From positions 1 through 42,677 of IMG/VR virus record IMGVR_UViG_3300045241_000140: a stretch of DNA of 42,677 nucleotides. The stretch is one strand, 5' to 3'. This document shows, piece after piece, positions 343-41,616 of this stretch. Position 1 is the first letter of the stretch. Each line of letters starts with the position of its first letter. The position numbers were made by a program, and so were the translations under genes. Source of the DNA: a virus. A model generated the notes under the pieces. The model saw only the letters and a list, made by a program, of their open reading frames with translations, made no database searches and had not been told where the DNA came from.

Positions 343-620
343 CACGCCACCCTGCGCGAAGTGACGACGCGTAACCGCGTCACACGCGGCTGCTCAGCCT
401 GCGCCACGAGCGCATACCAGGCGTCCCGGTAGGCTACCGTCTGGGTCTTGAAGCCACCCTGGAAGCGCGACCCGTCGCGCGCGATCCATTCCCATCCGGT
501 GAGGAGCCTCAGCTCGCCATCCTTCCGGTGCTCGTTCCAGGCCTGCGTCTCAATGACGCCGATGTAACGCACCCGCGCGACGCGTCCGACGTCGGCGATT
601 ACTTTTGCTGATAGCCACAT
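342..620 (-). CDS. Hypothetical protein, 92 aa
   Basis: Not recognised. It starts with ATG at 620 behind a good ribosome-binding site (GGGAGG about seven bases upstream on the minus strand). The protein is basic and rich in W, R and V, with a predicted mixed alpha/beta character and no signal peptide or membrane segment. It lies between the ERF gene (61-base gap) and the HTH gene, to which it is joined by a TGATG overlap, so it is co-translated in the leftward early unit. Confidence 0.7.
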   Translation of the reverse strand: MWLSAKVIADVGRVARVRYIGVIETQAWNEHRKDGELRLLTGWEWIARDGSRFQGGFKTQTVAYRDAWYALVAQAEQPRVTRLRVVTSRRVA

Positions 621-681
621 GACGTGCCTCCCACATCATTTGGCAGACTCGGAACGCCCCGCGCGCACGATCACCCGCCCT

Positions 682-1596
682 TCATCCTGCCATCACCTTA
701 TCCTCGCCCGCGATGGGCGGCAGCCCGTCCCCCGCCTTGCCGTCTGGCTCTTCGGGCTCCTCGGGCTTTTCCTTCAGCCGCTCAAAGTTTTCCGCCAGGA
801 TGTGGTCGATCTCATCGTGCGCCCATGTCGGGCTCGCGGCGATCACGGTCTTGATCCTATTCGTGCCGGCGAGCTGCACCAGCTCCTCGCGCCGATAGAT
901 GATCGCGCAGGCGCCGCGTAGCTTGACCAACCAAGCGCTCCATTCCTCGTCGGTCTGCGGTATCGGCAGCGGCTGGCGCGGTGGTGGATCGGTTGGCCTG
1001 TGCTGACCTTGGACGCCGCGCAGCGCCTCGCCGTCGTCATCCGGCTCGATCTCGCCGGCCACGAGATTGAGCGCATTGGTGTAGATCTGCCGCCTGAGAT
1101 ACGTCATCGTGGCAGCGACCGCCTGCGCTGGTGTCATCGGTAACTTGCCGCCCTTGGAGCCGCTGTCGGTAACGCCCACCGACATCCAGAACGGCTCGTC
1201 CTCGTAGCCGCAATCGTGGCCGAGGATGATGCCCATCTTAAGCCAGCCAGGCGGCGCATCCGCGCTGACATAGCGCACGTTCAGCCCGTGTTTTTTCATG
1301 TAGGGCTGCGCCGTCTCGACCGTTTTCTGGAGCGTGGCGTATTTGTTTTTGAGGAATGGATTGATCGCGTCTCTAACGATCGGATCCACCTCGCCCTGAA
1401 ACGCAGTCAGCGCCTCGGAGAAGACCCGCTTTCTCTGCTCGGCCCGCTCGATGCGCTGCTGCTCCATCTCCCTGTGACGCATCTCGAGCAGGGCTGCCAG
1501 CTTGTTGGTGTCGAAGTTCGGGTCGCGCATGGCGCGCTCCATGAACCCGACCCACGGATCAATCCCGCCCTGCGACACGGTGGTGACTTCGCTCAT
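682..1596 (-). CDS. erf: ERF-family single-strand annealing protein
   Basis: 304 aa. Residues about 50-200 match the ERF superfamily of phage annealing proteins as I know it: a helical lead-in, the NKYATLQ motif followed by a TAQPYMKKHGL helix, a GHDCGYED segment and the conserved MTPAQAVAATMTYLRRQIYTNALNL block. These proteins bind single-stranded DNA ends and pair homologous strands, in P22 circularising the entering genome. The C-terminal third is acidic and proline-rich (residues about 205-304), usual for the variable tail. The start overlaps the stop of the Gp157-like gene by ATGA, and the two commonly sit together in phage recombination modules. Family call is firm; the substrate role is inferred. 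Confidence 0.88.
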   Translation of the reverse strand: MSEVTTVSQGGIDPWVGFMERAMRDPNFDTNKLAALLEMRHREMEQQRIERAEQRKRVFSEALTAFQGEVDPIVRDAINPFLKNKYATLQKTVETAQPYMKKHGLNVRYVSADAPPGWLKMGIILGHDCGYEDEPFWMSVGVTDSGSKGGKLPMTPAQAVAATMTYLRRQIYTNALNLVAGEIEPDDDGEALRGVQGQHRPTDPPPRQPLPIPQTDEEWSAWLVKLRGACAIIYRREELVQLAGTNRIKTVIAASPTWAHDEIDHILAENFERLKEKPEEPEEPDGKAGDGLPPIAGEDKVMAG

Positions 1597-2057
1597 GCGG
1601 TCCTCAAGGTTAAAACCGGATACGGATTTGACAGCTCGGCACCTTCCACCGGCCCGTCCTTCAGCGCGCGCTGGAGCAGCCGCATGTCCGCCGCCTCACG
1701 CAGGAACGCGCGCGGTAGCGCCGCCAGGTCGGTGACGATCGCCTTGCGTTGATAGCTGTAGGATGCGGTGTAGAGCGGTCGCTCCGCTTTGTTCAGATCG
1801 GCTACCTCGAGCATCCGCCGCAGGATCTCGCGATGCCGATCAGCGCGCGCCTCGAGGCGTTTGATGCGCTCTCTGGCCAGCTCCACCAGGCGCGCGTCGG
1901 AAAGCGCCTGCTCGGCCAGATCATCGAGCACTGCAAAGAATCTGGTCTCGCCTTCCAGGCTGTCGTGGCGCAGGCGATCGTCATCATCGGGCAGCTCGGC
2001 AAGTAGCTGCATCGCCTCCGACATGGCCGCTTCGATGCGCCGCGGGCTGATCGTCAC
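1593..2057 (-). CDS. Gp157-like protein (siphovirus Gp157 family)
   Basis: 154 aa. It shows the Gp157 layout: an N-terminal acidic helix, a central long coiled coil (ERIKRLEARADRHREILRRM), then a short strand region around YTASYSYQRKAIV, and the C-terminal LPRAFLREA...LKDGPVEGAEL block that is diagnostic for the family. Gp157 was named from a streptococcal phage-resistance context, and members usually neighbour ERF, RecT or SSB genes, as here. The start is GTG at 2057 (GTGA overlap with the upstream stop), with an in-frame ATG at 2024 as alternative. Biochemical role unknown; a helper in recombination is inference from position. Confidence 0.85.
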   Translation of the reverse strand: MTISPRRIEAAMSEAMQLLAELPDDDDRLRHDSLEGETRFFAVLDDLAEQALSDARLVELARERIKRLEARADRHREILRRMLEVADLNKAERPLYTASYSYQRKAIVTDLAALPRAFLREAADMRLLQRALKDGPVEGAELSNPYPVLTLRTA

Positions 2058-2308
2058 GCAGCGCTGTCCGGATCGTTGTCCTGCCGCTGCGGCAGATTGA
2101 TCACCGTGATCTTGCGCTGCTTTGCGCGCCGCGGGCTGTCGTCCAGCAGCTCGTCGAGCGCTGCCAGCTGCTCCAGCACCTCATCGCTCCTGCCGCGCAC
2201 CAGCACCGCGTCCAGTTCGAGATCCCGCAGGTGTTTTCTCAGGTGATCCCGCCGCAGCTCCAGCCGGCGGCGCAACACCAGCGCGGCATTAAGAACATCG
2301 TCGCTCAT
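2054..2308 (-). CDS. Small charged helical protein, 84 aa
   Basis: Not recognised. I chose the ATG at 2308-2306 because it makes an ATGA overlap with the preceding stop, the pattern used throughout this genome; an ATG at 2329 would add seven residues. The protein is almost all charged helix (RRRLELRRDHLRKHLRDLELD, then acidic LEQLAALDELLDD) and probably forms a coiled coil. Its 3' end overlaps the Gp157-like start. Likely an accessory protein of the recombination module by position only. Confidence 0.65.
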   Translation of the reverse strand: MSDDVLNAALVLRRRLELRRDHLRKHLRDLELDAVLVRGRSDEVLEQLAALDELLDDSPRRAKQRKITVINLPQRQDNDPDSAA

Positions 2309-2535
2309 GCGGCGCCTCGGCGGTGCCATTCACGGACCATCCGATCGACCACACCAGCGCCCTCGCGGGCCAGCGCCGTATCGATGCGCGCGGTGCTTTT
2401 GACATATCGCAAAGACTCGAGGTGCCCGAGAATCTGCCTTGGCGGAGGGTTTGGTTGGGTTACCCTAGCCGCGCCAGGCGTGCCGACGTGATGCCTTCTA
2501 GGAACGCAATCAGGACGCTGCCAGTGCCGATCCAT
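2305..2535 (-). CDS. Hypothetical small basic protein
   Basis: Start uncertain: ATG at 2535 gives 76 aa; a TTG at 2610, overlapping the repressor stop, would give 101 aa. No function recognised. The C-terminal half (RYVKSTARIDTALAREG, then VVDRMVREWHRR) is helical and amphipathic and looks more protein-like than the Pro/Arg-rich N-terminal part. It is placed between the repressor and the helical gene and overlaps the latter by ATGA, so it fits the leftward unit. An opposite-strand ORF at 2323-2787 is less convincing. Confidence 0.5.
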   Translation of the reverse strand: MDRHWQRPDCVPRRHHVGTPGAARVTQPNPPPRQILGHLESLRYVKSTARIDTALAREGAGVVDRMVREWHRRGAA

Positions 2536-2596
2536 GACAAGAAGGTAGGGATCAATGACCCTGATAGTCAATCCGGAATGGGGCGAGATGTCCCTA

Positions 2597-2998
2597 TCAG
2601 CTGGCACCAATCACTGTCGAAGACCCGCATATGTTGGTGTGGAGATCAATGTGAAGAGTGTCAGATATGGGGGTTCTATAGGCCGATGACCCGGGTGGCG
2701 CCAACTCTGGGTGAGCCATCAGCAGGCCCTCCGTCAGGTCGGCGGGCATTCCAACGAGCCGCCCGGCGACTACGTAGTCCAGACTGATGTGCAGGCTGTG
2801 GAAGATACGGAACGCTAACTCGATGCCTGGGTTGGACCGACCGGTTTCGATGTTCCGCATTGTGGTCATATCGACGCCTATTTGGCGCGAGAACTCCATC
2901 CGGCTAGTCTCATACCATTCCCTGGCCCAACGAATACGCCGGCCCCTTGCCCTGCGCTTTTCCAGGGAATCTCCCGGTGTGCGAACTGTTCCCTGCAT
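2597..2998 (-). CDS. XRE-family transcriptional repressor (CI-like)
   Basis: 133 aa. Residues about 20-75 form a classic XRE helix-turn-helix: RIRWAREWYETSRMEFSRQIGVDMTTMRNIETGRSNPGIELAFRI contains the scaffold, recognition helix (MTTMRNIETGR) and closing helix. The remaining 55 residues have no LexA-type Ser/Lys peptidase domain, so release is unlikely to be by RecA-stimulated self-cleavage. It is transcribed divergently from the Cro-like gene at 3131, across a 132-base gap, which is the standard lysogeny switch arrangement. No clear Shine-Dalgarno precedes the ATG at 2998, so leaderless translation is possible. The immunity role is inferred from fold and position. Confidence 0.8.
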   Translation of the reverse strand: MQGTVRTPGDSLEKRRARGRRIRWAREWYETSRMEFSRQIGVDMTTMRNIETGRSNPGIELAFRIFHSLHISLDYVVAGRLVGMPADLTEGLLMAHPELAPPGSSAYRTPISDTLHIDLHTNICGSSTVIGAS

Positions 2999-3030
2999 GT
3001 GCTGTCGCGAATCTGTCCCGGCACAACTAT

Positions 3031-3045
3031 GGGGCTTTTAGCCCC
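3031..3045. promoter_or_regulatory. Inverted repeat, possible operator or hairpin
   Basis: GGGGCT-TTT-AGCCCC, a perfect 6-bp inverted repeat with a 3-base centre, about 33 bases upstream of the repressor start. It could be an operator or a small RNA hairpin in the repressor leader. Confidence 0.4.
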
Positions 3046-3083
3046 TTCATTCCACCATCTGCAGGTTACATTCTGTAGAGGTG

Positions 3084-3101
3084 GGCGTCAGGCTTGACGC
3101 C
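3084..3101. promoter_or_regulatory. Inverted repeat, candidate repressor/Cro operator
   Basis: GGCGTCA-GGCT-TGACGCC, a perfect 7-bp inverted repeat with a 4-base spacer (18 bp overall), the size expected for a dimeric XRE repressor. It overlaps the TTGACG -35-like hexamer about 32 bases before the Cro-like start, so binding there would block rightward transcription. Confidence 0.5.
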
Positions 3102-3130
3102 AGGGTCAATGGCCCAGCAACATATCCGTC

Positions 3131-3343
3131 ATGTCCCGGCATCGGGCGATTATTCGGGATCTCGGGGGATACGTGGCGCTGGCCGAACACCTCGGCGTGG
3201 ACGTCGAGACCGTGAAAAGCTGGAACAAGCGCGATAGGGGCATCCCGCCGCGCTATTGGGTGGATATCGCGCGCCTCGCCGGGATGAAGCCCGAGGATCT
3301 GCAGCGCACGTCGCCCAAGCCCTACCCGGCGCCGCGCAAGTGA
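3131..3343 (+). CDS. Cro/YdaS-like helix-turn-helix protein
   Basis: 70 aa. Almost the whole chain is one HTH fold: helix 1-2 at GGYVALAEHLGVD, recognition helix at VETVKSWNKRDRGIPPRYW, closing helix at VDIARLAGM. The 'switching to a non-integral IPPRYW' pattern is that of Cro/YdaS-type antirepressors that open rightward early operons. It is the first gene of the rightward unit, divergent from the repressor, and shares a TGATG overlap with the nuclease that follows. No obvious ribosome-binding site precedes its ATG. Role as Cro-like regulator is inferred from size, fold and position. Confidence 0.75.
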   Translation: MSRHRAIIRDLGGYVALAEHLGVDVETVKSWNKRDRGIPPRYWVDIARLAGMKPEDLQRTSPKPYPAPRK

Positions 3344-3804
3344 TGCCGGTCACCGCTGACCTGTTCGGCGCCCGCCCGCCAGCCAAGCTGCGTCTGACCC
3401 GCGTCGTCACGCCCGAGGACGACATCCACCAGGCCGTGGCCAAGGCGCTGCAGCGCCTCGTGCTGCCGCCGGCAGAGTGGACATGCTTCCCCGCCGGCAA
3501 CATCCCGTTGCCAGCGCAATGGGCCGCGAAGCTCGTGCGTTTCGGGTTGCAGCCTGGCTGGCCGGATTTCCTTGTGCTGCACGAATGGGTCTACGGCATC
3601 GAGCTGAAGCGGGTGGGCGCTGGGCTGTCGAAGACCCGGCTGGTCCGCACCCGACGCGGATCCTGGCGTGAGGTGATCGGTCAGGAGGACGTGTTCCCTA
3701 GGTTGGAACGCGCCGGGATGACGATCACGGTGTGTCGGTCGGTCGACGAGGTGCTGGCCGCTCTGCGTGGCTGGGACATCCCGATGCGGAAGTTCGCGGC
3801 ATGA
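3343..3804 (+). CDS. VRR-NUC domain nuclease
   Basis: 153 aa, starting at the ATG that overlaps the upstream TGA. The stretch from about residue 22 (EDDIHQAVAKALQRL) to the end matches the VRR-NUC fold, a PD-(D/E)XK-type nuclease: an early Glu/Asp in the first helix, then GWPDFLVL and YGIELKR supplying the catalytic D...E-x-K, followed by a QEDVFPRLERAGMTITVCRSVDEV helix-strand-helix closing the fold. Phage VRR-NUC proteins are believed to act on branched DNA such as Holliday junctions before packaging. The next gene (HNH nuclease) overlaps by ATGA. Confidence 0.85.
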   Translation: MPVTADLFGARPPAKLRLTRVVTPEDDIHQAVAKALQRLVLPPAEWTCFPAGNIPLPAQWAAKLVRFGLQPGWPDFLVLHEWVYGIELKRVGAGLSKTRLVRTRRGSWREVIGQEDVFPRLERAGMTITVCRSVDEVLAALRGWDIPMRKFAA

Positions 3805-4707: not shown

Positions 4708-5583
4708 ATGATCCAGGGGCAAGGGGGCGGCACGCTCGATAAAGAGCGCAAGATCGGTTCCGCCGAGACGATCGGCATGACCATCGCGAACGGTCTCGCC
4801 AGACGCCATGCCTGGCGACAGGCAAAACCATATTTCCACCTCGACCTCAACGCCGGCTCTGGTTGGAACGAGATCGCCGGATGCCCGGGCTCGCCCGTGG
4901 TGTTCTGCGAACTGGCGCAGCGCAAGCTGACAGCGATGCCGCTCTATGCCTGGTTCTGTGACATCAACCAGGCCTCAGTCGAACAGATGGAGCGTTGGTT
5001 GGTGCGGTATGGCCATCTGCCACAGCCCGGCATCTCGCTGTTCTGCGAAGACAACCGCTCGGTGATCAGCCGGTTCGCCGAACAGATCTGCCGGCGCGAC
5101 CGGCCTGAGCATGCCCTCGGCAGCCTGCTGTGTGATCCCAACGCCTGGTTCTACCGCGCCAAGAACGGCAACGGCGTGCCGGTCGAAGAGATCATTGCGT
5201 TCGCTCGCCTGTTTCCCAAAATCGACATTATCCTCAACGTCAACTATCGGTTCTATGCAATGGCGGCGCATGCCACGAATGGCGGCTTTGATGCGCTGCT
5301 CTCACCCGACCAGATCCGCAGCCTGCTCAACCGCAGCCACTGGCTGGTGAGCCGCCAGCACTTCGGTGGCCGAGACCGGTTCTGGCTGGCGATCGGACGC
5401 AACGTCATCACCGGAGACCACAGGCGGCTTGGGTTAGTCCATTGGGACAGCCCCGAAGGTCGCTCCATCATGAACATCGTGGCGGGCGGGCGGCAGGGCG
5501 ACCTGGACCTCGAGGCACCACGCGCACGGCGCGAGCCACAGCTGGCGTTGCCATTGCCCACCAGGCAGAGGGGGGCAGCGTGA
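4708..5583 (+). CDS. tcmP: TcmP-like protein (three-Cys-motif partner), methyltransferase-like
   Basis: 291 aa, ATG preceded by a strong AGGGGGA site. Residues 43-54 (FHLDLNAGSGWN) resemble motif I of class I SAM-dependent methyltransferases, followed by GSPVVF, an acidic WFCDINQ segment where motif II would lie, and LLCDPNAW at the motif IV position. This pattern fits the three-Cys-motif partner family TcmP, which is known from its habit of neighbouring CX3CX2C Gp37/Gp68-type proteins. Exactly such a protein is encoded by the next gene, overlapping by GTGA. The substrate and chemistry are unknown. A plain DNA methyltransferase is less likely because no clear DPPY-type motif is present. Confidence 0.7.
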   Translation: MIQGQGGGTLDKERKIGSAETIGMTIANGLARRHAWRQAKPYFHLDLNAGSGWNEIAGCPGSPVVFCELAQRKLTAMPLYAWFCDINQASVEQMERWLVRYGHLPQPGISLFCEDNRSVISRFAEQICRRDRPEHALGSLLCDPNAWFYRAKNGNGVPVEEIIAFARLFPKIDIILNVNYRFYAMAAHATNGGFDALLSPDQIRSLLNRSHWLVSRQHFGGRDRFWLAIGRNVITGDHRRLGLVHWDSPEGRSIMNIVAGGRQGDLDLEAPRARREPQLALPLPTRQRGAA

Positions 5584-7355
5584 GCGAACGACCGCAACTC
5601 ATTCCACTTGCCAGCCTAACACCACACCCTGGCAATCCACGCCTGGTCGAGCGAACGGAGGTGATCGAACAGCTCACCGCGCTGATCCGCGAACACGGCT
5701 TCGACGCGGCGCACGCCATTATGGTCCGACCGCTCGGCGAGGGGTTCCAGATCGTGTCTGGCCACAACCGGGTGAAGGCAGCGCTGCTCAGTGGATTGAC
5801 GACGATCTGGGCCTGGCCACGCGAGATGACCGACGAACAGGCCTACATGCAACTCGTGCTCGCCAACACACAGGGCGAGCTGTCGCCGCTGGAGCGTGGA
5901 CTGCATGCGCTGCGCAGCGGTATGACCGTGTCAGCATATGCCACGAGCGTCAGGCGGCCACGAACGTCCGTGCAACACGAGGTCGAGGCCGCCAGGGTCG
6001 CTGAGGTGATCGATCTCGATCACAGTCAGATCCCCTTCTGGTGCCTCGTTCACATACACCCTGCCAAACGGTGGTTTTGGCCAGTGCTAATCGCCAAGGC
6101 GACGCGCGGCGATGGCCTGACTGGGGATAAGATGCGCGACCTGGTGCGTGACCGGCAACTCAAGGACGCCCCCGAGCAGCGCTGGGCCTTCGCCTGGGAC
6201 CGCATCGCCGAGCGGGTGGTCGAGGGCAAGATGCCGCTGGACGACGTGCGCGAAATGCTGGCGATGTTCCAGCATTACGTCGATGTGCTAGGCGACACTG
6301 ACGTGCATCCCGACACACTGTTGCCAGGCACGGTGGACATGGTGCTGGAGGGCCACAACGTGGCGTCACCATCTCAGCTGCAGCAGGTGTTGCGACCACT
6401 GCTCGCCGAACTGGAAGACCCAGCCAGCGCGCAGGGGCGTGCGGTGTCGCTGTTCGCCATCGTCTCGCTCGATCAGTGGGGCGGCCTCGATGACGCGACC
6501 AAGCGCATCCTGCTCGACCCACAGCGGCTGCCGGCGACCGGCACCTTCAACCTGCAGTCCGGTCCCGGCATCGAGTGGGCCAAGTATTCATGGAACCCGA
6601 TCACCGGCTGCCTGCACGACTGCCCGTATTGCTATGCCCGCGACATCGCCACGCTTGGCAACACCGCGCGCGCCTTCCCGCACGGCTTCGCGCCAGCCTT
6701 CAAGCCGGTGCATCTCAACACGCCGAACAACATGCGCCCGCCGAGGGGCGCTGCGCATGACCAGCGTGAGCGCAACGTGTTCTGTGGCTCGATGTCCGAC
6801 TGGTGGGGGCGTTGGGTGCCGGTTGAATGGATCCACGCGGTGCTGACCGCGATCGGCGACGCACCATGGTGGACGTTCCTGACACTGACGAAATTCCCGA
6901 AACGGATGGCCGAGTTTGAGTTGCCGGCGAATATGTGGGCCGGCACCACCGTTGACCTGCAGGCGCGCGTGCGAAATGCCGAGGCGGCGTTCGCCGACAT
7001 CAATGCCTCGGTGCGCTGGCTGTCGATCGAGCCGATGCTGGAAAACCTGCGATTCTCACGGCTCGACCTGTTCCAATGGATTGTGATCGGTGGTGCCTCG
7101 GTCTCATCGCGCACGCCAGAGTGGAAGCCGCCGATGGCGTGGATCGTGGATCTGCTGGCGCAGGCACGCGAAGCTGGTGTGCCAGTCTACATGAAACCCA
7201 ACCTGCTGGGCCACCGTGTCCTTGAAATGCCGAACGGATTGCCGGTGCCGCAGGACTATCCTGCCGCACCACCGTCGGTGTTCGACTATCTGCGCGACAA
7301 GCGATCACTTGAGGCCAAGCCGCTGTCTGAGCGCCGGTCGGAGGTTGGCGCATGA
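5580..7355 (+). CDS. ParB-like domain fused to DUF5131 (Gp37/Gp68) three-Cys radical-SAM-like protein
   Basis: 591 aa from the GTG at 5580, chosen because it makes a GTGA overlap and follows AGAGGGGGG. Residues about 3-120 are a ParB/Srx-type domain: LIPLASLTPHPGNPRL, then VRPLGEGFQIVSGHNRVKAALLSGL, with the GHNR box at 61-64. The middle is helical. Residues about 330-560 are the Gp37/Gp68 (DUF5131) domain: EWAKYSWNPITGC, then C344, C348 and C351 in a CX3CX2C arrangement followed by YA, as in radical-SAM iron-sulphur clusters, then FCGSMSDWWG, WWTFLTLTKFP, NMWAGTTV, WLSIEPML and WIVIGGAS. The N-terminal domain may bring DNA or CTP/nucleotide binding to the cluster enzyme. Activity is not established for this family. 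Confidence 0.85.
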   Translation: MSERPQLIPLASLTPHPGNPRLVERTEVIEQLTALIREHGFDAAHAIMVRPLGEGFQIVSGHNRVKAALLSGLTTIWAWPREMTDEQAYMQLVLANTQGELSPLERGLHALRSGMTVSAYATSVRRPRTSVQHEVEAARVAEVIDLDHSQIPFWCLVHIHPAKRWFWPVLIAKATRGDGLTGDKMRDLVRDRQLKDAPEQRWAFAWDRIAERVVEGKMPLDDVREMLAMFQHYVDVLGDTDVHPDTLLPGTVDMVLEGHNVASPSQLQQVLRPLLAELEDPASAQGRAVSLFAIVSLDQWGGLDDATKRILLDPQRLPATGTFNLQSGPGIEWAKYSWNPITGCLHDCPYCYARDIATLGNTARAFPHGFAPAFKPVHLNTPNNMRPPRGAAHDQRERNVFCGSMSDWWGRWVPVEWIHAVLTAIGDAPWWTFLTLTKFPKRMAEFELPANMWAGTTVDLQARVRNAEAAFADINASVRWLSIEPMLENLRFSRLDLFQWIVIGGASVSSRTPEWKPPMAWIVDLLAQAREAGVPVYMKPNLLGHRVLEMPNGLPVPQDYPAAPPSVFDYLRDKRSLEAKPLSERRSEVGA

Positions 7356-9478: not shown

Positions 9479-9951
9479 CCGAGCCACGCACCGTCACGCC
9501 ACACGAGGAGGACGTCGCGTGGGCCACGGCATGGCTCCGCAACGCCGATGCGGGCATGGAGCAACACCTCCTCGAGCGACGGCTCAGGCGCATGCACGAG
9601 CGGCGCATCGGCGGGTTCCGATGGCTCGTGGCCAACGACGCACGCGCCAGGCGCATAGCCAGCCGCCTCAGCCTGCTGGACGCCGGCAAAGCCTCCTGGG
9701 AAGCCATCGATGCGATCGAGGTCAGGCGTAAGATCCGCAACGTCGAAGCCGCGGCCTTCCCGCCGCTGCTCGGGCACTTCCTCGCCACGGCGCTGCGCAA
9801 CCATGCGCCGCACCACCTCGGTCTGTTGCCACCACAGTGGCTCGAGGACAGCGACGACCAGGCAGCGACCGTCGTGCCACTGCGCGCCGCCGCCACACCC
9901 ATCCACGCCGAAGTCCGCCGCGGCCCGGTGATCGAGCCACCCGATGCTTGA
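9475..9951 (+). CDS. Hypothetical protein after the initiator, 158 aa
   Basis: ATGA overlap with the initiator. It is strongly helical and Arg-rich (MEQHLLERRLRRMHERRIGGFRWLVANDARARRIASRLSLLDAGK, then AIDAIEVRRKIRNVEAAAFPPLLGHFLATALR). No Walker motif, so it is not a DnaC-type ATPase. In lambda the gene after O encodes the helicase loader P, which also lacks a P-loop; occupying that slot makes this a candidate helicase loader, on position only. Confidence 0.65.
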   Translation: MTEPRTVTPHEEDVAWATAWLRNADAGMEQHLLERRLRRMHERRIGGFRWLVANDARARRIASRLSLLDAGKASWEAIDAIEVRRKIRNVEAAAFPPLLGHFLATALRNHAPHHLGLLPPQWLEDSDDQAATVVPLRAAATPIHAEVRRGPVIEPPDA

Positions 9952-10549
9952 CCAGCCAGGAGATGCGATCCTACAACCCGCAGCGGAGCTGGGGCAGGGC
10001 AACCACCACCAGTGCTACTGCGTGCCAGGCTACCGCTGGACCTGCGTGCGGACACACACACAGGCGGAACGATGGGCACAGGCCAACCTCGAGCGCTCGG
10101 GATATCGCACATACCTGCCCCTGGTCTCGCTGCACCGCCCCGATCGCGCAGTCGCCACGATGGTGCATCGCGTCACCGTCCCAGCCTTCACCGGCTACGT
10201 CTTCGTCCAACACGATCCAGCCACCTCGTGGGGACCGATCCGTGACACACCAGGCGTCAGTTCAGTGCTTCGATGCGGTAATCGCATCGTGTATGCACGC
10301 AGTGGGGCCGTGGAGGCCGTCAGGAGCGCGCTACAGGCCTCTGAGGCGCTGGCCGCTACTCGTCCACCCAAAAACAGCTGGGCGGCGCCAGGGGTGCCTT
10401 GCAGGCCTCGCATAGGGGTGTTCCGGCAGATGCCAGCCGTGATCCTGTCGGTGGGGCAGGATATGGCGCTGGTCAGCATCATGTTCCTGGGCGAGCTCCG
10501 CGAGGTAGCGCTGGACCTCGACTGCATCGAGCCAAGGGATGGTGGGTGA
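9944..10549 (+). CDS. NusG/RfaH-like transcription elongation/antitermination factor
   Basis: 201 aa, overlapping the previous gene by eight bases. Residues about 31-120 match the NGN fold: WTCVRTHTQAERWAQANLERSGYRTYLPL, VPAFTGYVFVQHD, then WGPIRDTPGVSSVLRCGNR. Residues about 155-197 match a KOW domain: IGVFRQMPAVILSVGQDMALVSIMFLGELREVALDLDCIEP. NGN binds the RNA polymerase clamp and suppresses pausing, and KOW recruits Rho or ribosomes. A phage-borne copy just before the long late unit suggests that it lets polymerase read through to the structural genes, as lambda Q or RfaH do; that role is inference. Confidence 0.82.
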   Translation: MLDQPGDAILQPAAELGQGNHHQCYCVPGYRWTCVRTHTQAERWAQANLERSGYRTYLPLVSLHRPDRAVATMVHRVTVPAFTGYVFVQHDPATSWGPIRDTPGVSSVLRCGNRIVYARSGAVEAVRSALQASEALAATRPPKNSWAAPGVPCRPRIGVFRQMPAVILSVGQDMALVSIMFLGELREVALDLDCIEPRDGG

Positions 10550-37396: not shown

Positions 37397-39862
37397 ATGG
37401 CAGACGCAGCAACCGATCCCACCGCTGACCTCGAGGCAACCTACCGGCAACTGCTGCAACAGACGCTGCAGCCGCAACCCGTGCCGTTGCCACAGGGTCC
37501 GTCAGCCTCGTCGCACGAAGGGCGCGGCTGGTTGTCGCTGCTCGGCGAGGCGCTGGGCGGTGGCGAACAGTATGGCTCCACAGCAGAGCGCGAAGCGGGC
37601 GGCATCGCTGCGCTGGGCGCCATGGGCCGGCGTATGCTCGAGGCGTCGGACTACAGCTATCGCCCGCACACTCTCGGCTCGATCATCGGCCAGGGCATGG
37701 GCGCTGCCGGCGAGGCGCTGGGACAGCGCCAGGCAGTGTCCGCCGCGCAGGCCGCGGCAGCGCAAGATTATCAGACGAAACAACAGGAGATGCAGCTCGC
37801 GCGGATCAAGGAAGCGGTGCCGCTGCTGACCAACCTGCAGTCGATGCAGCAACTGGCCCAGGCCAGGAGGATCGCCCTCGGTGGCAACGCGCCTGGCACG
37901 TCGATCGGCGCGGTCGGCGGCGATCTGCCGAACGACAAGGCCGCGGCGCTCAAGATTATCGCGCAGCGCGAATCGGGCGGCGATCCCACCGCGCTGAACT
38001 ATGTCGCGAAAGCGGATCCGACCGCTTACGAACGCGGCGCCACGGCGAGCGGCAAGTATCAGATCGTCAACAGCACCTGGCGCGAGGGGATGCAGCTCGC
38101 CGGCATCGACCCGTCGAAATACGCCACCGCGCGCGACGCACCGGAATCGGTGCAGGATCAGGTGGCCGGTGCGATCTGGGACAAATACGGCAACAAGCCC
38201 TGGCAGAAGGGCGCCAAGGACTGGGTGAAAGACGAGGCGGGGAAGTATCAGCTGGCGACCGTCAGGCCGCCGGCAAGTGCTCCCGGTGGCGCACCCACAA
38301 CAACCCCGCCAGCAGGCTCCACAGCCTCTACAGCGCCGCCTGGCGTGACGATGGGTGATGTCGCACACCCAGAGCTGGCACCAGGCCCGCCTGGCAGCAA
38401 AGGCGGCGCTCCGATCGGCATCGGCGCCGCACTCGGTGGCGGCACCACCACGCTGCCAGTGCCACCGATCCCACCTCCCGCTGTCGCCGGCACACCGCTC
38501 CCGGCAGGCAAGTTGCAGTCCACCGGCAAGCCGCCTGGGCAGGCCGCGGCAGACGCCATCCTGGGCGGCGTGCAGCTCGCCCAGGCGACGCCTCTGGTGC
38601 GCGGCACCGGGCAGGAGGCCGGGCCGTCCAGCGCCGTGGCGACGCTCGCGCAGCCACCCGCACAGCCAGGCTGGGGAGGCGCTGTGGGGGCCTATGGCGA
38701 CGGGGCTACGACCACACCCCCGCCAGCGCCAACGCCACAGGCGACCTCCCAGGCGCCGCCTGCGCCCACGCCAGCGACAACGCCGACACCACCAGCTGTC
38801 ACCGCGCCGCCGCCAGGCGGGATGCCTGAACCGGCGCCATACGCCTATCAGCGCCAGCCGCTGCCGCCCGACATCCAGAGCCGCATCGCCCAGCCGCTGA
38901 GCCCCGAGCAGCTCGAGCCCTACAATCGCGCAATCCAGAGCGCCACCACGGTCGAGGCGATCCAGGCCGCGCAGGACAAGAGGAGCGCAGCGATCGCCGC
39001 CGCCCGCGCCGAGGTGGTTAAGGAAGGCGACGCTTGGCAGCAGAACGAGCGCAACAAGCAGCAGGAGATCTGGCAGAAGCGCTGGGACGCCTGGCAGACC
39101 GGCGAATCGCAGCGCCAGCAGGCGGCGCAGAAGCTCGAGGCCGATCTGAGGCTGAAGCAGGCAGAGGGTGAACAGCAGCGCATCACCAACAAGGAAGCGG
39201 TGTTCAACCAGGCCAACCAAAAAGGCCTCGAGGCAGCGCAAACCGAGCAACTCGCCGCTCGCAACTCCGTCGCCCAGCTCGAGGGCTTCCGCTCCGTCTC
39301 CGACGCTGTGAAGCAGCCGAACTGGCTGCAGACTACGAAATGGCCAGGTTCCAACCACTCGATCGCCGAGCAACTGCAGCAAGCCGGCATCCCCGTGGAG
39401 GACACAGCGGGTGTGCAGCTCCTGCAGGGCGCGATGACCAACCTCACGCGCACGCTCCGTGAAGGCATGCCTATGGGCGCGTTGTCCGATCGTGATCTCG
39501 ACTTCATCCAGCGCATGGGACCGACCGAATGGATGGATCAGGACACGCGCACCGCCGCAGTCGATTATCTGCAGCGTGCGTTTCGCGCCAAGCAGCGTTT
39601 TGCCTCCGATGTGCAGAAGGAGATGAGCCGCGGTAAAAATTACGGCGATGCCGTTGATACCGCAGACGCCAAACAGCCGAAGTCGTTCGTGCCGACCGTA
39701 GATTCTGAGCTGTCCTCGCATTGGACAGACAACAGCAAGGAATGGGTCGATCGCCGCATTAAATGGGCGCAGGACAACGACGTGAGGCCAGGCACGCTGT
39801 TCCACATGAATAACGGGAACATCGTGATCTGGAAGCGTAAATCCAGCCAGGGGCAACAGTGA
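37397..39862 (+). CDS. Ejection protein with lytic transglycosylase domain, 821 aa
   Basis: Residues about 183-285 are a lysozyme-like transglycosylase domain: AALKIIAQRESGGDPTALNYV with candidate catalytic E192, ASGKYQIVNSTWREGMQLAGI (the GxYQ-x-x-xxTW motif) and QVAGAIWDKYGNKPW. A long Pro/Thr/Ala-rich linker (about 290-495) follows, then an extended helical C-terminal half (EVVKEGDAWQQNERNKQQEIWQKRWDAWQTGESQRQQAAQKLEADLRLKQAEGE...) resembling internal virion proteins. The enzyme would open the peptidoglycan during DNA entry. It overlaps the next gene by TGATG. Function by domain and position. Confidence 0.82.
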   Translation: MADAATDPTADLEATYRQLLQQTLQPQPVPLPQGPSASSHEGRGWLSLLGEALGGGEQYGSTAEREAGGIAALGAMGRRMLEASDYSYRPHTLGSIIGQGMGAAGEALGQRQAVSAAQAAAAQDYQTKQQEMQLARIKEAVPLLTNLQSMQQLAQARRIALGGNAPGTSIGAVGGDLPNDKAAALKIIAQRESGGDPTALNYVAKADPTAYERGATASGKYQIVNSTWREGMQLAGIDPSKYATARDAPESVQDQVAGAIWDKYGNKPWQKGAKDWVKDEAGKYQLATVRPPASAPGGAPTTTPPAGSTASTAPPGVTMGDVAHPELAPGPPGSKGGAPIGIGAALGGGTTTLPVPPIPPPAVAGTPLPAGKLQSTGKPPGQAAADAILGGVQLAQATPLVRGTGQEAGPSSAVATLAQPPAQPGWGGAVGAYGDGATTTPPPAPTPQATSQAPPAPTPATTPTPPAVTAPPPGGMPEPAPYAYQRQPLPPDIQSRIAQPLSPEQLEPYNRAIQSATTVEAIQAAQDKRSAAIAAARAEVVKEGDAWQQNERNKQQEIWQKRWDAWQTGESQRQQAAQKLEADLRLKQAEGEQQRITNKEAVFNQANQKGLEAAQTEQLAARNSVAQLEGFRSVSDAVKQPNWLQTTKWPGSNHSIAEQLQQAGIPVEDTAGVQLLQGAMTNLTRTLREGMPMGALSDRDLDFIQRMGPTEWMDQDTRTAAVDYLQRAFRAKQRFASDVQKEMSRGKNYGDAVDTADAKQPKSFVPTVDSELSSHWTDNSKEWVDRRIKWAQDNDVRPGTLFHMNNGNIVIWKRKSSQGQQ

Positions 39863-41616
39863 TGGCAGACGAGGATCTGGACCCAGGCGCCGGTTCTGTC
39901 GTGGTCGGCTACGGACCACCCGGCGCCACGTCGCCCTACGCCGACCCAGGCGGATCTCGTTACCCCGACATGACGCCCGGCCCGCCGAAGGCGAAGATCC
40001 TCGAGACCAGCTTTCACAGCGTGCCCTCCGACACGCGGACAGCCGGCGAGGTGTGGGATGACGGCGTGCGCCGGATGCGTGAGTCCGCGGAGCGCATCGG
40101 CACCGAGATGAACCAGACGTATCGGGATACCCCTCCCGTGGTCGGGCCGGCGGTGCGCGACGCGATCGGCAAAACGGGATGGCTCGGTCGCAATGTCTTC
40201 GGGCCGGCGGCAGATGCCGCTGACTTCGTCGGCAAGGAAGGCTCGGCGATTGGCTCGGGCTTCCTCGCTGCCGGCGCTGAGCTGCTCGGCGGCGGCGATC
40301 CGCAGCGCACCAGAGACGCGCACGCCGCGCTGCAGATCCTGCCGGTGCTGAAGACCGCCATGCCGCCGGTCGCCGCGCCGATCGTCCTACCGGAGCGCAA
40401 GCTGCCGCCAGGCCCCGCAGGCCCGCCAGGCCCCGCAGGCCCAGGTCCGGTTTCACTTGGACAAGTGACAGGCGCGGTCCAGCGCGCGGCGCCGCCCAGC
40501 TGGCGACCCGTGGCGCCGGGAGAGGATTATGCCCCAGGTCGCGAATATCGGATGAACCAGGCGACCGGGCGGCGAGAGGTGAATGTAGGCGGTCCTGCTG
40601 CACCACCTGACAACGTGACCATACCGCCAGCCCCACCACCGCCGCCTGCTGGCCCCGCCGCCTCGCCATACCCGCCAGAGCGCATCCCGATCCGGACGCC
40701 CGACGATGCCTTGCGGGTCTACAAACCGCAGATCCAGGCAGCTGAACAATCGGACTTCAAGTTATCGCCGCAGTTCACCCACGACTGGGTCGGCAGCCTC
40801 GATCCGCATGCGGATCTAACTCCGGCAGCAAGGGCGGCGACGCCTAGCGGTAATTCGGTCACCAATCTGGTCGCTGATCTGCGCAACACGGCTGACGCGC
40901 CGCTGGACAACATCAAGAGCATCCAGCAGATCGATGAGCGGATTCAGGGCGCCATCTCCAAAGAGTCCGGATCGGGCGGCGATCCGAACCAAGTCAGGCA
41001 GCTGCGGCAGATCCTGCAGGATTTCCGCGACCGCTACAGCAATGTCCCCGCCAATCAGTTCACTGGCAGCCCACAGGGGATCCAGGCGTTTCAGGATTCC
41101 ATCAAGAGCTACGCTGCGGTGTCGCGCCTGCGCGAAGTGCAGGGCATCATTGATTCGACGGAGGGGAACCCAAACCGGGCCACGCTGCTCGCCTCGCGCG
41201 TCAACGGATTCCTGAACGATGAGCGCAACACGCGCGGCTGGACCGACGAGGAACGTGCCAGTTTGCGTAGGGCAGCCAATTCCGGCTTCGTGTCGGAATG
41301 GATGCGCGCGCAGGGTAGCCGCTTGGTAGGCATTGGCTCCGCCGTCACAGGCGGCGTCGCCGGCATGTTGTTCGGCGTGCCGGCACAGGTCGGCGTCTCC
41401 TATGCGGTGCGCAACGCCGCGGAGAACGCACGCCTGGCGCGATTGCGCGGTGCGATGGAAGTGCTGGGACAACGCGTGCCGCAGCCTGGCACCATACCAA
41501 CGCAACCGCCGCCCCGAGTTCCCTCGCAGGCGGCGGTGACGCAGGCTCGGTATGGGCCCCTCACGGGGCTGTTGGGGCAGACGGCCAATCAGCCTAGGGA
41601 CGATCGGCTATTCTAA
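39862..41616 (+). CDS. Putative ejection protein, 584 aa
   Basis: ATG at 39862 in a TGATG overlap (GTG at 39859 possible). The N-terminal region includes WLGRNVFGPAADAADFVGKEGSAIGSGFLAAGAELLGGGDP, then a collagen-like GPAGPPGPAGPGP stretch and Pro-rich linker; the C-terminal 300 residues are helical (RIQGAISKESGSGGDPNQVRQLRQILQDFRDRYSNVPAN... ANSGFVSEWMRAQGSRLVGIGSAVTGGVAGMLFGV) with one possible membrane segment near residue 500. Position as last gene of the rightward unit after the transglycosylase protein fits an ejection protein. Stop codon overlaps that of the opposite-strand gene. Confidence 0.68.
   Translation: MADEDLDPGAGSVVVGYGPPGATSPYADPGGSRYPDMTPGPPKAKILETSFHSVPSDTRTAGEVWDDGVRRMRESAERIGTEMNQTYRDTPPVVGPAVRDAIGKTGWLGRNVFGPAADAADFVGKEGSAIGSGFLAAGAELLGGGDPQRTRDAHAALQILPVLKTAMPPVAAPIVLPERKLPPGPAGPPGPAGPGPVSLGQVTGAVQRAAPPSWRPVAPGEDYAPGREYRMNQATGRREVNVGGPAAPPDNVTIPPAPPPPPAGPAASPYPPERIPIRTPDDALRVYKPQIQAAEQSDFKLSPQFTHDWVGSLDPHADLTPAARAATPSGNSVTNLVADLRNTADAPLDNIKSIQQIDERIQGAISKESGSGGDPNQVRQLRQILQDFRDRYSNVPANQFTGSPQGIQAFQDSIKSYAAVSRLREVQGIIDSTEGNPNRATLLASRVNGFLNDERNTRGWTDEERASLRRAANSGFVSEWMRAQGSRLVGIGSAVTGGVAGMLFGVPAQVGVSYAVRNAAENARLARLRGAMEVLGQRVPQPGTIPTQPPPRVPSQAAVTQARYGPLTGLLGQTANQPRDDRLF

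Follow-up and report, generated by a model that had tools for sequence, protein, structure and literature searches.

A TcmP-like methyltransferase coupled to a ParB-DUF5131 fusion: a conserved gene pair of phages and plasmids and a candidate DNA-modification unit

The window analysed here is a 42.7-kb viral record (IMG/VR record IMGVR_UViG_3300045241_000140, positions 1-42,677), in which terminase, portal, scaffold and major head genes are present. A rightward (+) gene run, beginning opposite a repressor-like gene (2597-2998, -), contains two genes that overlap by GTGA at positions 5580-5583, where the ORF at 4708-5583 meets the ORF at 5580-7355, exactly as the preliminary description of this DNA had read it. 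Replication-initiation and NusG/RfaH-like genes follow downstream in the same run, and the pair is located in the early/replication region of the record. The features of the two genes are as follows.

4708..5583, + strand: TcmP-like protein P0002, 291 aa, ATG start (TIGR04474, AlphaFold2 model, Foldseek, hhalign)
4741..4743, + strand: Lys12, in helix 1, invariant in 41/41 TcmP and TcmP-like proteins (alignment)
4843..4863, + strand: motif I, DLNAGSG, residues 46-52 (alignment, hhalign)
5134..5142, + strand: motif IV, DPN, residues 143-145 (alignment)
5580..7355, + strand: ParB-DUF5131 fusion P0001, 591 aa, GTG start (Pfam domains)
5595..5873, + strand: ParB N-terminal (ParB/Srx fold) domain, residues 6-98 (Pfam, Spo0J 1vz0, Foldseek)
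5874..6224, + strand: ParB/KorB-type helical DNA-binding region, about residues 99-215, boundary approximate (Foldseek, model helices)
6570..7214, + strand: DUF5131 radical-SAM-like domain, residues 331-545, pLDDT ~96 (Pfam, model, hhalign)
6609..6632, + strand: CX3CX2C motif, Cys344/348/351, predicted [4Fe-4S] site (sequence, alignment)

The first gene had been proposed to encode a TcmP-like methyltransferase, and both profile and structural searches bear this out. P0002 matched TIGR04474 (NCBIfam) with E = 7.4e-7 and 29.4 bits, which misses the NCBI cut-off of 53 bits, and we therefore refer to the protein as TcmP-like rather than TcmP. Structure prediction, which the preliminary description had suggested, gave an AlphaFold2 model (pLDDT 86, pTM 0.84) with a methyltransferase fold, for which the best Foldseek matches were LPL1258 and E. 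coli RlmJ (E 2.6e-7 upward, whole-chain TM ~0.46). The 50 matches listed were methyltransferases or had the methyltransferase fold, and further structural neighbours were tRNA enzymes, such as Trm1 and MnmM. Independently of the model, RlmJ ranked first in a profile-sequence search of PDB chains (E 9e-6), and hhalign joined the P0002 family to RlmJ homologues at 96% (E 3.4e-9). By sequence and predicted fold, the TcmP-like protein is a class I methyltransferase nearest to RlmJ, an rRNA m6A enzyme.

P0002 keeps the D..AG.G and GSP motifs, Asp143-Pro144 and Lys12. Judged by its place in helix 1, Lys12 is a candidate counterpart of the catalytic K18 of RlmJ, an enzyme whose methyl transfer requires both D164 and K18 (PMC3814359, PMC9178011). 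RlmJ's motif IV, DPPY, is replaced by DPN at residues 143-145, so methyl transfer by the TcmP-like protein is put forward here as a prediction. Residue 145 is Asn in 24/28 partners of the ParB-fused clade defined below and Tyr or Phe in 12/13 canonical TcmPs, a difference that is diagnostic between the two groups in the alignment. A tblastn search of annotated phages with the TcmP-like protein returned no match at E<=1e-5.

The second gene had been described as a fusion of ParB and Gp37/Gp68 domains, and both domains score above their Pfam gathering cut-offs: ParB_N at residues 7-98 (E 8.5e-9) and DUF5131 (PF07505, Gp37/Gp68 family) at residues 331-539 (E 2e-37, 129.5 bits versus a gathering threshold of 28.9). 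The fusion architecture is already represented in public databases, since the BFVD viral protein A0A1B1IPY1 matches the whole P0001 chain (E 4.8e-29). Within the DUF5131 domain, the cysteine motif reads ITGC-LHD-C-PY-C. Cys344, Cys348 and Cys351, singled out earlier for their radical-SAM spacing, form a CX3CX2C motif that is invariant across 51 aligned members, as are the core residues of DUF5131.

Further profile evidence agrees with the radical-SAM character claimed for the C-terminal domain. Pfam Radical_SAM (PF04055) scored in 25/51 members, and TIGR04471 matched P0001 over the whole domain (residues 339-543, E 2e-18), below its own cut-off. In hhalign comparisons, DUF5131 aligned to the PA0069 family at 96% (E 2.5e-9, 97 columns), with the TD and TK motifs in register; true spore photoproduct lyase reached a modest 67%, and TcmP, the negative control, 0.9%. 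These radical-SAM alignments are confined to the N-terminal ~110 residues of the domain. An NCBIfam scan of P0001 gave no match to TIGR04070 (spore photoproduct lyase), and the DUF5131 profile found no credible match among PDB sequences. The P0001 model has a pLDDT of 87; its low pTM (0.60) makes the domain arrangement uncertain. The order of strands and helices in the DUF5131 domain fits a partial TIM barrel, and a Foldseek search with the whole model gave a weak RlmN match (E 0.024); the weakness of this direct fold match may be attributed to the ParB part, which dominates the whole-model search. Based on the invariant cysteine motif, the PF04055 and TIGR04471 scores and the alignment to PA0069, the DUF5131 domain is likely a radical SAM enzyme of the PA0069/spore-photoproduct-lyase kind.

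The N-terminal part of P0001 resembles ParB well beyond the Pfam match, and the ParB-type assignment now extends to the DNA-binding part. A sequence match to Spo0J (1vz0) covers residues 8-136 (E 1.9e-15), and the N-terminal 200 residues of the model match CTP/CDP-bound ParB, Noc and KorB in Foldseek (E down to 7e-9), in alignments spanning ~200 columns with a TMt of 0.66 for KorB. Together these matches place a helical DNA-binding region beside the Srx-like fold. Box II is SGHNRVKA (residues 60-67), with the core SGHNR where ParB has GERR. By sequence and model, P0001 combines a ParB/Srx N-domain that has box II with a helical DNA-binding domain behind it. Across the clade, ParB is the most divergent part: the box-II signature is found in 35/43 members and absent from 8, and Pfam ParB_N recognises just 10/51 aligned proteins, which indicates that this part diverges fast. 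No clearly repeated palindrome that might serve as a ParB-type binding site was found in the 42.7-kb window, which contains 25 palindromic 12-mers versus 15.5 in shuffled sequence, a slight excess.

To place the pair among its relatives, we scanned IMG/VR as well as bacterial and archaeal genomes with a profile; the 160 loci obtained were analysed together with plasmid matches. DUF5131 proteins fell into three forms: (a) long proteins whose N-terminus is ParB-like, with CX3CX2C and, in most cases, a TcmP-like gene upstream; (b) short proteins with CX6CX2C, adjoining canonical TcmP; and (c) short phage proteins that have CX3CX2C but no TcmP. Among the DUF5131 loci L028-L086, CX3CX2C occurred in 120 ORFs and CX6CX2C in 46 ORFs, the latter found in no clade other than that of the canonical TcmP partners. 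In a midpoint-rooted maximum-likelihood tree of 125 sampled DUF5131 domains, form (a) and a few shortened members made up a single clade (43 rows, SH-aLRT 100), which lies a long way from the CX6CX2C clade (46 rows).

The ParB clade originates mostly from viral contigs, with some plasmids and bacterial contigs. It occurs in ~6 bacterial contigs among the 80 best genome matches versus ~35 viral contigs, and hence is carried mainly by mobile elements. TcmP-like genes, which were found without using their position, lie directly upstream on the same strand in 34/41 clade members with a readable upstream region, often with short overlaps (1-14 bases); near-identical loci were counted separately, so that these counts refer to sequences and not to independent events. 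The divergence of the TcmP-like proteins is correlated with that of the DUF5131 domains (Mantel rho 0.44, 0/2000 permutations). Judged from these sequences, the TcmP-like and ParB-DUF5131 genes form a conserved, translationally coupled unit, and their association goes beyond chance. The pair is not obligate: for 7 clade members (L007/L090, L008, L010, L011/L012, L089), no TcmP partner was detected in the whole record or genome.

The unit does not extend to the two genes that follow it, which had also been suggested as members. Among the fetched loci, the 249-aa Zn-ribbon gene turns up again in the nearest relative (L002) alone, and the 77-aa gene in none; both were rejected for want of conservation, and an enlarged four-gene unit is unsupported. 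An NCBIfam match of the 77-aa ORF to ZntB (E 0.0025) was judged to be due to chance. Elsewhere in the window, a NusG/RfaH/UpxY-like protein is encoded between the replication and packaging genes (9944-10549, +; NusG domain E 5e-12, RfaH-like E 7e-15, under cut-off); an RfaH-type antiterminator is unusual for a phage. A 1055-codon open frame at 37502-40669 (-), antisense to the + ORFs 37397-39862 and 39859-41616, is probably a shadow ORF of GC-rich coding DNA.

Among the neighbourhoods of the ParB clade, replication, recombination and DNA-methylase genes (C5 and N6/N4 DNA methylases) are found, no repair gene recurs, and no third gene recurs as widely as the TcmP-like gene. In the phages Dulem virus 34, Estave1 and RcapNL, DNA methylases are found close to short DUF5131 genes, and canonical-pair loci adjoin MADS, type I, II and III restriction-modification and AbiE genes. 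Individual loci show further features. On one viral contig (L001), a separate ParB-like gene (289-1218, +) immediately upstream of the TcmP-like gene puts ParB, TcmP-like and ParB-DUF5131 genes in a row. Just upstream of the TcmP-like gene of L002 is a small ORF (5776-5997, +) that has, by eye, the look of a GcrA-type regulator; if it is one, it would suggest an alphaproteobacterial host. On an S. caniferus plasmid (L003), Ku and ATP-dependent DNA ligase genes (470-3705) lie <4 kb upstream of the pair.

That nucleic acid is the probable target, as proposed at the outset, is supported by these observations, and the genomic context leans towards DNA, given the position of the pair in the early/replication region and of phage DUF5131 genes beside DNA methylases. 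The reading we favour is that of a two-protein nucleic-acid-modification unit of phages and plasmids, acting most likely on DNA, in which ParB would deliver the radical enzyme and the partner would be an amino-methyltransferase; we judge it about equally likely to be right or wrong. DNA is suggested as the substrate by the ParB part with its DNA-binding region, by the DNA-methylase neighbours and by the reported frequent fusion of ParBc domains to phage DNA methyltransferases (PMC12783734). Also in favour are the conserved pairing, the correlated divergence and the lack of an equally widespread third gene, as well as the resemblance of the RlmJ active site to those of DNA m6A methyltransferases (PMC3814359). 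The hhalign likeness to spore photoproduct lyase (67%) counts on the same side. Spore photoproduct lyase acts on DNA. Counting against this reading are the RNA substrate of RlmJ, the nearest solved methyltransferase, the DPN form of motif IV, the 7 members without a partner, the 8 without box II, the missing repeated palindrome in the window and the weak radical-SAM fold match.

The likeness to RlmJ and RlmN makes an RNA substrate the strongest rival. The pair might modify the infected cell's tRNA or rRNA, so as to sustain translation, for instance, or to evade anticodon-cutting defences, with ParB serving regulation or localisation. RlmJ, closest by both profile and fold, is an rRNA enzyme, RlmN is an RNA methylase, and Trm1 and MnmM act on tRNA; however, most of the clade carries ParB with its helical DNA-binding region, and the neighbours are DNA methylases and replication genes rather than RNA genes. 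We regard this alternative as unlikely.

A temperate phage might instead carry the pair, a variant of canonical TcmP/DUF5131, for anti-phage defence or superinfection exclusion; such a role is suggested by the listing of the canonical pair as the PADLOC candidate system PDC-M41/PDC-M30, by the defence genes around canonical loci and by the S. meliloti tcmP gene SMa2243, which shares a co-regulation table with the defence gene hna (SMa2245) (PMC12445080). PDC-M41/PDC-M30 was predicted by 'guilt-by-embedding' without experimental validation (PMC10855318). The window pair, however, sits in an early replication operon and not beside cargo genes, its TcmP-like protein matches no PADLOC model at E<=0.01, and the ParB-clade and canonical DUF5131 proteins are distinct clades with different cysteine spacing, which makes such a role improbable. 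Less probable again is DNA repair, in which ParB would load an SPL-like radical-SAM domain onto phage or plasmid DNA to remove a lesion, with the methyltransferase-like protein in an accessory role: the alignment to the PA0069/SPL kind of enzyme and the Ku and ligase genes beside one related plasmid pair are consistent with it, but similarity to true SPL is modest, an amino-methyltransferase would have no obvious job, and repair genes do not recur nearby. A regulatory or partition protein whose function is set by ParB, with the enzyme domain as sensor or relic, would suit the strong ParB similarity but is scarcely credible given the invariant radical-SAM cysteines and DUF5131 core, a conserved partner that is a methyltransferase and not ParA, and a ParB part that is the most divergent of all.

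For the favoured DNA-modification unit, a sequence of steps can be envisaged. The ParB/Srx and helical domains, possibly acting as a CTP-dependent clamp, would place the radical-SAM domain on the element's DNA, where it could generate a 5'-deoxyadenosyl radical and functionalise a base or a group attached to one. The RlmJ-type partner might methylate an exocyclic amino group, either before the radical step, preparing the site, or after it, finishing the product. The likeliest benefit would be altered DNA that escapes host nucleases in early infection. In its most specific form, in which a ParB-clamp-loaded radical-SAM enzyme and an RlmJ-like amino-methyltransferase of phages and plasmids make a novel radical-derived DNA base modification, the proposal is tentative, a possibility rather than a probability.

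The component families and the TcmP/DUF5131 pairing are already known, and DUF5131 and TcmP are widespread partners whose canonical pair is a defence candidate. Among the open-access PMC papers searched, we found none on DUF5131 function and none that describes the ParB-fused clade, its cysteine spacing, the DPN partner or the RlmJ-like and SPL-like assignments; nor did these papers give a substrate, a product or a phenotype for a protein of either the DUF5131 or the TcmP family. The pair is a good candidate for an undescribed chemical alteration of DNA: the ParB-fused clade hints at DNA as the target, and a chemistry open to testing follows from the RlmJ-like and radical-SAM assignments. If the proposal is true, it would also provide a clue to the reaction of the defence-associated canonical pair.

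Among the closest known systems, canonical TcmP (TIGR04474) and DUF5131 (PF07505) share with the pair adjacent methyltransferase-like and three-Cys DUF5131 genes, both of whose products are homologous. The pair differs in its ParB N-terminus, in CX3CX2C instead of CX6CX2C, in DPN instead of DP[FY] and in its separate DUF5131 clade, found mainly on viruses and plasmids, whereas canonical pairs lie in defence-gene neighbourhoods. Of the two PDC-M41/PDC-M30 components, only B was matched (E 1.9e-33), A having no match at E<=0.01. Short phage DUF5131 (Gp37/Gp68) proteins have the domain and CX3CX2C in common with the fusion, but are ~220-400 aa long, lack ParB and had no TcmP partner that we could find.

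The PA0069/Rv2578c/spore photoproduct lyase enzymes share the (N)P..GC...C.YCYAR signature and the TD and TK motifs, within an alignment limited to the N-terminal ~110 residues; we know of no ParB or methyltransferase partner in that kind. RlmJ, the 23S rRNA m6A2030 methyltransferase, has the fold, the D..AG.G...GSP motif, the Asp-Pro of motif IV and the helix-1 Lys in common with the TcmP-like protein, which by comparison has DPN for DPPY, lacks the insert that separates motif I from GSP in RlmJ, shows no clear Y4/H6 motif X tail and has no RNA-acting context. Fusions of ParB to phage DNA methyltransferases likewise place a ParB N-domain on a phage base-modifying enzyme (PMC12783734); here the enzyme part is a likely radical SAM domain instead, and, if the proposal is true, radical chemistry would join phage DNA modification.
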